This document shows, one piece after another, positions 7,641-9,362 of a stretch of 54,048 nucleotides of DNA. Origin of the DNA: a bacterium HR15 (GTDB lineage: Bacteria > Armatimonadota > Fimbriimonadia > Fimbriimonadales > GBS-DC); the NCBI GenBank assembly GCA_002898555.1, contig BEHR01000025.1, positions 1 through 54,048 of the forward strand. Direction: 5' to 3'. Both the position numbers and the translations under genes were made by a program. The notes under the pieces are model-generated. The model was not told the DNA's origin. It worked only from the letters and a program-made list of their open reading frames with translations, and made no database searches. Within the stretch, counting starts at the first letter, position 1. The number at the start of each line of letters is the position of its first letter.

Positions 7641-7869
7641 ATGACAAGTAGCGACTGGAATCGAGGGCGTTCGAAAACTGTTTCATAAACCTCTCTGGCT
7701 CCCTCCTGGGAGTCAGAGGGAGCCTCTTGTTGCTTTGCGAGTGCCCCCGCGCAGCAGGGGCATTTGCAAAGAAGGCATGCGGACATAAAAAACCTACCCC
7801 GTCAACCCCTATATATCGGAAATTTCGGGGAGTTTTGCCCAAATCTGGGGGTTTGTGGGGCAAAACCCC
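7641..7869. other. Non-coding region with three strong hairpins before the dcw promoter
   Basis: No gene is visible. Three inverted repeats are present: 7697-7724 (9-bp perfect stem GGCTCCCTC/GAGGGAGCC followed by TCTTGTT, a plausible purC terminator); 7733-7771 (15-bp stem with two G-T wobbles, CTTTGCGAGTGCCCC against GGGGCATTTGCAAAG); and 7832-7866 (9-bp perfect stem GTTTTGCCC/GGGCAAAAC) ending 3 bp before the dcw -35 hexamer. A copy of the GAGGG(T/C)GTTCGAAAA motif lies at 7663-7678. Confidence 0.7.
7697..7731 (+). terminator. Probable purC terminator
   Basis: A perfect 9-bp stem (7697-7705 with 7716-7724) and 10-nt loop, followed by TCTTGTT. It lies 57 bp after the purC stop. The T-rich tail is weak. 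Confidence 0.55.
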
Positions 7870-7898
7870 TTGACAAACGCGCATCGATGTGCTATAAT
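7870..7898 (+). promoter_or_regulatory. Consensus promoter of the dcw operon
   Basis: TTGACA (7870-7875) and TATAAT (7893-7898) are 17 bp apart, with an extended -10 TGC. Spacing and the CCCCTTGACAAA context match the promoter at 2683. Transcription should start near 7905, just before the GTGG repeats. Confidence 0.92.
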
Positions 7899-7906
7899 AT
7901 ATCCCA

Positions 7907-7950
7907 GTGGAGACTTGGTGGAGACTCAGTGGTAGATTGGTGGTAATTCG
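7907..7950 (+). promoter_or_regulatory. Four 11-bp direct repeats, probable MraZ operator
   Basis: GTGG occurs at 7907, 7918, 7929 and 7940, an exact 11-bp period. The units read GTGGAGACTTG, GTGGAGACTCA, GTGGTAGATTG and GTGGTAATTCG. They start at or just after the predicted transcription start and end 29 bp before mraZ. MraZ is known to repress its own operon by binding several closely spaced TGG-containing direct repeats near the promoter, so this is the natural operator. The link is inferred. Confidence 0.75.
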
Positions 7951-7978
7951 AGGCGCAGGCGTAGGTTGGTGAAGCGCG

Positions 7979-8422
7979 ATGGCGAAGTTTCAAGGCGGAA
8001 GCTACTACGCAGTAGATGACAAGGGGCGGATCGTGATTCCGATGCGCTTCCGCTCGATGCTGGGCGAGCGTTTCATCATCACGCGGGGTTTCGGCGGCTG
8101 CCTCTTTATCTTCACCAACGACCAATGGCAGCGACTGGGCGACAAGTTCGACGACGGCGCACTGTTCGACCCGCGCAAAATCCGCCTGCAGCGATTTTTA
8201 TACACGAACGCCGCAGAGGTCAACCCTGACAGTCAGGGGCGCGTCGCCATTCCACAGGAGCTGCGCGACTGGGCGCAGATTGAGCCGAACTCGGAAGTGC
8301 TGATCGCTGGGTGTGCAAACTGGATTGAAATCTGGAGCCGCGCGCGCTACGAGAGCATTATGCAAGCCGAGCTGGAGAACGGTGACGAATTGATGCAATT
8401 GGCAGTTGAGATGAATATCTGA
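7979..8422 (+). CDS. mraZ: Transcriptional regulator MraZ
   Basis: A 147-residue protein with two tandem AbrB/SpoVT-like half-barrels, each with the signature: DDKGRIVIPMRFRSML (residues about 14-29) and DSQGRVAIPQELRDWA (about 84-99). MraZ forms ring oligomers that bind direct repeats and repress the dcw operon. It is the first gene of the operon, directly after the 11-bp repeat operator, and ends 7 bp before rsmH. The Shine-Dalgarno site is weak (GGTGAAG), which may keep MraZ level low relative to the downstream genes. Confidence 0.95.
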   Translation: MAKFQGGSYYAVDDKGRIVIPMRFRSMLGERFIITRGFGGCLFIFTNDQWQRLGDKFDDGALFDPRKIRLQRFLYTNAAEVNPDSQGRVAIPQELRDWAQIEPNSEVLIAGCANWIEIWSRARYESIMQAELENGDELMQLAVEMNI

Positions 8423-8429
8423 GGTCGCC

Positions 8430-9362
8430 ATGCACAAGCCGGTGATGTTAGACGAGGTTATCCAATTGCTAAGCCCGCCACCGGGCGGGGTGGCGGTGGA
8501 CGGCACGGTGGGGGCGGGCGGGCACGCGCGTACCCTCGCCGAACGGTTGGGCCCCACCGGCACCCTCATCGCCATCGACCGCGACACGAGCATGCTGGAC
8601 CTTGCCTATCAAACCCTGCGCGACCTGCCTATCACGCTCCACATGGTGCATGGCGACTATCGAGACCTGCCCGCCATTCTGGATGAGCTGGGCATCCCCC
8701 AGGTGGACACCATCCTCATCGACATGGGGGTCTGCTCCGATCAGTTGGACGACCCGGAGCGCGGGTTAGCGTTCCGCTATGATGCGCCGCTCGATATGCG
8801 CCTGGACCGCTCCCAGAGCGAGACAGCGGCGCACCTGCTGCGGCGGGTATCAGTGGGGGAACTGGCACGCATCCTGCGTGATTATGGCGGCGAGCGGTGG
8901 GCAAACCCCATCGCGAAAGCCATTATCCGAAGGCGCGAAGCGGGGCGCATGAACACCACCGGCGACCTGGTCGCCGCTGTGCTGGAAGCCATCCCGCGCA
9001 AGTATCAGGAGAAGCGCATCCATCCCGCCACGCGCACCTTCCAAGCGATTCGAATCGCGGTCAACCGAGAGCTGGACCGGCTGCAGGAATCGCTGCAGGC
9101 AATTTGTGGCTGCCTGCGTATCGGCGGGCGCATCGTGGCGATTGCCTACCATTCGCTGGAAGATCGCGCAGTCAAGCACGCCTTTCGCGAGTTGAGCGTC
9201 CGTCAGCCGGTCCATGCACTGGCAACCAGCAAGATGCCGACCGCTACACGCCCAGTGCTGGAGGTGCTAACGCCCAAGCCACTGGAGCCGAGTGACGAAG
9301 AGATTTGTCAGAACCCGCGGGCGCGCAGTGCGAAACTACGCGCCGCGCAACGGATAGGATAA
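8430..9362 (+). CDS. rsmH: 16S rRNA (cytosine1402-N4)-methyltransferase
   Basis: A 310-residue SAM-dependent methyltransferase that modifies C1402 of 16S rRNA. DGTVGAGGHA (24-33) is the SAM-binding glycine-rich loop, followed by LIDMGVCSDQLDDPERGLAFRYDAPLDMRLD, the family-typical substrate segment, and IAYHSLEDRAVKHAF near the C-terminus. The length is that of the family. The gene is second in nearly all dcw clusters, as here, 7 bp after mraZ. The initiation region reads GAGGTCGCC-ATG. Confidence 0.96.
   Translation: MHKPVMLDEVIQLLSPPPGGVAVDGTVGAGGHARTLAERLGPTGTLIAIDRDTSMLDLAYQTLRDLPITLHMVHGDYRDLPAILDELGIPQVDTILIDMGVCSDQLDDPERGLAFRYDAPLDMRLDRSQSETAAHLLRRVSVGELARILRDYGGERWANPIAKAIIRRREAGRMNTTGDLVAAVLEAIPRKYQEKRIHPATRTFQAIRIAVNRELDRLQESLQAICGCLRIGGRIVAIAYHSLEDRAVKHAFRELSVRQPVHALATSKMPTATRPVLEVLTPKPLEPSDEEICQNPRARSAKLRAAQRIG

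Follow-up and report, generated by a model that had tools for sequence, protein, structure and literature searches.

In bacterium HR15, a member of the Armatimonadota, the promoter of the dcw cluster carries four GTGG boxes that follow one another at exactly 11 bp. From the sequence we infer that this array is the operator through which MraZ represses its own cluster, and for this reading, with the binding, the ring contacts and the repression that it entails, the probability can be put at about 0.9. Judged by its recurrence across phyla, GTGG is the general MraZ box, so that the motif is not new; what is new, relative to the published sites compared here, is the 11-bp pitch. That pitch is uniform in two families of the phylum (f1, to which the genome belongs, and f19) and is mixed with 10 bp elsewhere in the phylum.

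Four in-phase boxes at the mraZ promoter

The window, that is, the whole stretch of 54,048 nucleotides that was analysed (contig BEHR01000025.1), contains a promoter on the forward strand with a -35 hexamer, TTGACA, at 7870-7875 and a -10 hexamer, TATAAT, at 7893-7898, which are separated by a 17-nt spacer and match the σ70 consensus at 12 of 12 bases. The first predicted MraZ box (7907-7917, GTGGAGACTTG) begins 8 nt past the -10 element, about at the predicted transcription start, just where the earlier note on this DNA had placed it, and is followed on the same strand by box 2 (7918-7928, GTGGAGACTCA), box 3 (7929-7939, GTGGTAGATTG) and box 4 (7940-7950, GTGGTAATTCG), the last of which ends 28 nt before the mraZ ATG. 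The GTGG cores at 7907, 7918, 7929 and 7940 are spaced exactly 11-11-11 bp, without gap or slip. The description of "four exact 11-bp repeats" given previously holds for the core and the pitch and not for the spacers, which are unlike each other; position 5 of each box is A or T. A consensus that had been offered for the boxes, GTGGWNANTYR, does not stand up in relatives: it fits three of the four boxes in the window (box 3 being the exception) and 17 of the 52 aligned boxes of the family, a count in which the four boxes of genome G005 stand one base out of register.

The arrangement is confirmed as a real feature of this DNA. When the 338-nt intergenic region was shuffled 20,000 times with its dinucleotides preserved, GTGG repeated four times at 11 bp was never recovered, and any 4-mer repeated four times at any period from 8 to 13 was recovered four times. 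When up to two mismatches are allowed, the array pattern has one match in the 54-kb window versus 0.01 expected. In the whole 3.0-Mb genome the four-box pattern has a single match; a three-box pattern has five, two of them belonging to the array itself, and a reversed control of the three-box pattern has zero.

The gene downstream, mraZ (7979-8422, forward strand), encodes the presumed regulator, a protein of 147 aa that matches PF02381 (E 1.4e-27; 95.9 bits against a cut-off of 23) and, by phmmer, the MraZ chains 1n0e, 9qlr, 9qlg and 9sx6 of the PDB, and that is 65% identical to MraZ of a Fimbriimonadia MAG. It opens the dcw cluster and is followed on the same strand by the second gene, rsmH (mraW; 8430-9362; PF01795, E 1.8e-99), beyond which lie ORFs of mur-, mraY- and penicillin-binding type (read by eye); the array thus occupies the mraZ-rsmH promoter.

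Comparison with described MraZ sites

MraZ, which regulates division genes in bacteria and is widely conserved, forms an octameric ring in the species in which it has been characterised. Its operator in E. coli was reportedly described by Eraso et al. 2014. In E. coli K-12, GTGG direct repeats begin 7 nt past the -10 element (TAAACT, picked by eye), the boxes number four when a final GGGG is included, and the gene order mraZ-rsmH is the same as in the window; however, the pitch there is 10 bp and the boxes read GTGGG, with G at position 5, whereas the pitch in the window is 11 bp and this position is A or T.

Other sites are considered here as they are described in the portions of the cited papers that were at hand. 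These report that MraZ represses the dcw cluster in E. coli and Mycoplasma genitalium (PMC8475190) and that, in B. cenocepacia, the fragment to which MraZ binds has four repeats of 7 nt, spaced by 3 nt, downstream of the -10 element (PMC7761207). The latter repeats, like those in the window, lie over the transcription start, but 7-nt repeats with 3-nt spacers give a period of 10 bp rather than 11. The site in Mollicutes, (AAAGTGKN3)3, shares with the window a GTG core and direct repeats at the dcw promoter, and differs in having three repeats at 10 bp instead of four at 11 (PMC5282649, PMC8475190). A further regulator of mraZ, different from MraZ, is treated in PMC9602371. All of the published MraZ sites compared here have a 10-bp pitch.

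By these standards, the array in the window stands where an MraZ operator is expected, at the mraZ-rsmH promoter, consists of at least three direct repeats with a GTG/TGG core, overlaps the predicted start and is conserved together with mraZ. It departs from them in its pitch, 11-11-11 rather than 10 bp, and consequently is called a variant. Whether MraZ can use an 11-bp pitch is partly answered, since M. gallisepticum MraZ has been found to bind an 11-bp HsdC motif, (GTGTTAN5)2, about as strongly as its own 10-bp site (PMC5282649). That motif resembles the window array in having a GTG core at 11 bp and being bound by MraZ in vitro; it differs in that its regulator is a restriction-system C-protein and in that it has two repeats, and in vivo the HsdC operon was unaffected by MraZ overexpression (PMC5282649). 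Because one MraZ does bind an 11-bp repeat in vitro, the 10-bp pitch is better regarded as a property of the sites that have been described than as a proven need of MraZ.

Conservation of the array in the family

The earlier note had proposed that its interpretation would fall if the repeats were not conserved upstream of mraZ in relatives. The outcome was the opposite: the exact four-box pattern is found at mraZ in 13 of the 18 genomes of family f1. In G005, three GTGG cores stay in phase and box 3 has decayed to ATAG; in G002, MraZ is strongly diverged and the boxes are absent. An mraZ match is lacking in G001, G016 and G017, which, for assemblies in 210 to 440 contigs, is weak evidence of absence. 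TTGACA is present in 13 of 13 aligned f1 promoters, and the distance from the -10 element to box 1 is 8 nt in 12 of them and 9 nt in the remaining one. Within the aligned boxes, the core holds 1.55-1.86 bits per base, compared with 0.27-1.19 for the spacer. In most members of genus g4, box 4 is GGTGGTGA and lies 9 nt ahead of the ATG (by eye).

The boxes are missing where MraZ has diverged, as in G002, or is unmatched, as in two other members of the order with 1.5-Mb genomes (G054 and G055; loci L168 and L170), which have kept rsmH and have neither an mraZ match nor the boxes; this coupled loss comprises three genomes, two of them from one genus.

Pitch of the boxes across the phylum and beyond

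PF02381 is matched in 258 of 291 Armatimonadota genomes. From the matches listed, 184 loci were taken, the best-scoring first and then further families, which makes the sample non-random; 182 of them have an MraZ ORF, and the 146 with rsmH as the next gene and free of N runs were kept, one per genome, from 27 families. A fixed chain score for GTGG alone gave many weak calls in families f3 and f5 and was therefore dropped in favour of the distances between GTGG pairs, counted in the 320 nt upstream of mraZ. These distances fall overwhelmingly at 11 bp (104 pairs) and 10 bp (40 pairs), with none at 9 bp, one at 12 bp and between one and seven at each of the other distances from 5 to 16 bp. As controls, the 320 nt of downstream coding sequence gave no pairs at 10 bp and three at 11 bp, and when the first 107 promoters, in three groups, were shuffled with their dinucleotides preserved, no distance in any group exceeded 0.7 pairs. 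Unbiased 4-mer autocorrelation also detected the 11-bp period in several families, and, of 20 loci of the first set that have no recognised rsmH, some have such pairs as well, three at 10 bp and three at 11 bp.

Counted by genome, 37 of the 146 have only 11-bp steps, 13 only 10-bp steps, 13 both and 83 neither. Besides its occurrence in f1, the exact four-box pattern is present at mraZ in 8 of the 10 genomes of f19, so that 21 of the 30 genomes matching it anywhere do so at mraZ; in the other nine the matches are DnaA-box arrays, tandem repeats or lie in other places, and a reversed control of the pattern matches in 10 of 291 genomes, about the same number as these nine. (In G260 (L165), two convergent ORFs that do not adjoin mraZ flank a perfect tandem array of GTGGAGACCCA, a word that is also found in Armatimonadota MraZ boxes.) All three genomes of f22 that have a step have one of 10 bp, and f10 and f11 mix the two pitches, with chains such as 10-11-10-11. 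In f3, the large family of the order, and in f5, the GTGG repeats are replaced by TCCC as read on the coding strand, which is GGGA on the opposite one; TCCC pairs number 22 at 11 bp and 16 at 10 bp over the 146 promoters, in 28 genomes, mostly of f3 and f5, and some of these repeats overlap the -10 element itself. A 10- or 11-bp step of either GTGG or TCCC is present in 88 of the 146 promoters. The remaining 58 have neither, which means either that the 10/11 rule is not universal or that boxes can be more degenerate than GTGG.

The longest arrays in the survey are those of genus g56 in f10 (loci L108, L180, L181 and L115), which by reading consist of seven boxes in G072, G073 and G074 and six in G071, at an 11-bp pitch and about 20 nt past the -10 element, with GTGG, ATGG or TTGG as the core. 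In f11 (L105, L119, L120, L131) and f10 (L062, L114), the ribosome-binding sequence and the start codon of mraZ lie partly within boxes (by reading), and operator and translation start there use common bases.

Outside the phylum, PLSDB, which includes chromosomes filed as plasmids, yielded 29 records with an MraZ match, 11 of which were used together with E. coli K-12. The GTGG core is present at mraZ in Bacillus, Paenibacillus, Subdoligranulum, Bacteroides, Nonomuraea, Tsukamurella, Aeromonas and E. coli. All 21 GTGG pairs found between 5 and 16 bp, in 10 of the 12 records (9 of the 11 other than E. coli K-12), are at 10 bp. The Burkholderia record has GTG repeats at 10 bp rather than GTGG pairs, and the Shinella record showed neither GTGG nor GTG repeats at mraZ; if the core is relaxed to GTG, isolated 11-bp steps are seen in Paenibacillus and Legionella. 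Genomes with an 11-bp GTGG step and genomes with only 10-bp steps number 50 and 13 inside Armatimonadota versus 0 and 10 outside, for which the Fisher p of 1.8e-6 overstates the evidence because the genomes are related. Among the titles and abstracts of open-licence papers, no description of an 11-bp MraZ operator, no relevant paper on MraZ in Armatimonadota and none on the structures 9qlr, 9qlg and 9sx6 were found; PMC5089854 yielded nothing on MraZ sites. The earlier proposal of a new type of MraZ operator would survive as regards the pitch, which differs from 10 bp, and not as regards the GTGG core, which is shared across phyla; as far as sequence can tell, the interpretation of which it formed part is partly supported.

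Alternative explanations

Each of four other accounts of the repeats was rejected on the evidence that follows. A DnaA box has the motif TGTGGATAA (TTATCCACA), and boxes of this kind at mraZ could link division to replication. The same genome does have a three-box GTGGATAACTT array at an 11-bp pitch, DnaA-box-like and adjoining a recF-like gene (L002, 1501-1526; likely to be the origin of replication), and GTGGATAACCT arrays are present in relatives. The GGATAA part, however, is absent from all four boxes of the window and from the aligned f1 boxes, and mraZ arrays of equal pitch but with different spacers occur in many families, so that DnaA boxes are a very improbable explanation. An origin by tandem duplication, leaving a functionless by-product, would explain why boxes 1 and 2 are identical at 9 of 11 bases; it is the least credible of the four, since different genera have kept the array at an unchanged distance from the -10 element and GTGG has persisted while the spacers diverged.

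The repeats are also rich in G, and a G-quadruplex motif has been proposed downstream of the Staphylococcus aureus mraZ promoter, with similar ones in other bacteria, in the part of PMC11796246 considered here. By the G4Hunter threshold of 1.2 taken from that source, the best 25-nt score over the window array (0.72) is too low, as are the scores of the f1 members (0.64-1.12), and the conserved feature is the 10/11-bp phasing, for which a quadruplex has no need; there is little chance that the array acts in this way. The E. coli K-12 MraZ box array (L166) itself scores 1.68, from which it may be that the reported mraZ G4 motifs are MraZ box arrays. Action in the RNA, through a leader structure or an overlapping ribosome-binding sequence, might be suspected from the closeness of GGTGGTGA to the ATG in g4 and from the boxes of f10 and f11 that reach the start codon (by eye). 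It is likewise hard to credit for the window, where box 4 lies well clear of the ATG and the leader at 7905-8000 folds no better than its shuffles (z +1.06), and what is conserved is pitch rather than complementarity.

A model for MraZ at the 11-bp array

The array is placed like the known MraZ sites, and the simplest reading is therefore an autorepression in which MraZ occludes the region of the start. MraZ would bind the array through four adjacent DNA-binding units of its ring, each of which would read one GTGG on the same face of the helix. The bound protein would cover about +2 to +45 and block initiation or escape by RNA polymerase, and MraZ would thereby repress its own dcw cluster.

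A more tentative suggestion, with the odds rather against it, is that the geometry in which the MraZ ring engages its operator DNA is a different one in Armatimonadota, the dcw start possibly being wrapped on the ring. At 10.5 bp per turn, boxes at 11 bp would drift by about +17 degrees per step and boxes at 10 bp by about -17; with the 11-bp pitch, the DNA would either be undertwisted or follow the ring with the opposite twist, and the 10-11-10-11 alternation would average 10.5 bp. Arrays of six or seven boxes (up to 77 bp), as in genus g56, would be enough for nearly the whole MraZ octamer, and if they engage it, the dcw start region could wrap on the ring. With the same GTGG core, a pitch of 11 or mixed 10/11 bp and up to seven boxes, these promoters would form a natural series on how the ring reads DNA, bearing on the choice between a ring that flexes, DNA that untwists and a protein that has changed. 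The dcw promoters of uncultured Armatimonadota also become recognisable as putative operators, and searches for MraZ sites that are restricted to 10 bp would miss 11-bp arrays.

An element upstream of the -35 sequence

Just upstream of the -35 hexamer, an f1-conserved element (7798-7869, forward strand) contains CCCC and AATT repeats at helical intervals of about 10.5 bp, with CCCC pairs 10, 21 and 31/32 bp apart. It is perhaps a second MraZ site on the reverse strand, a UP-like element or curved DNA. The genome holds no second strong copy of it; a 27-nt partial match is found at another promoter.
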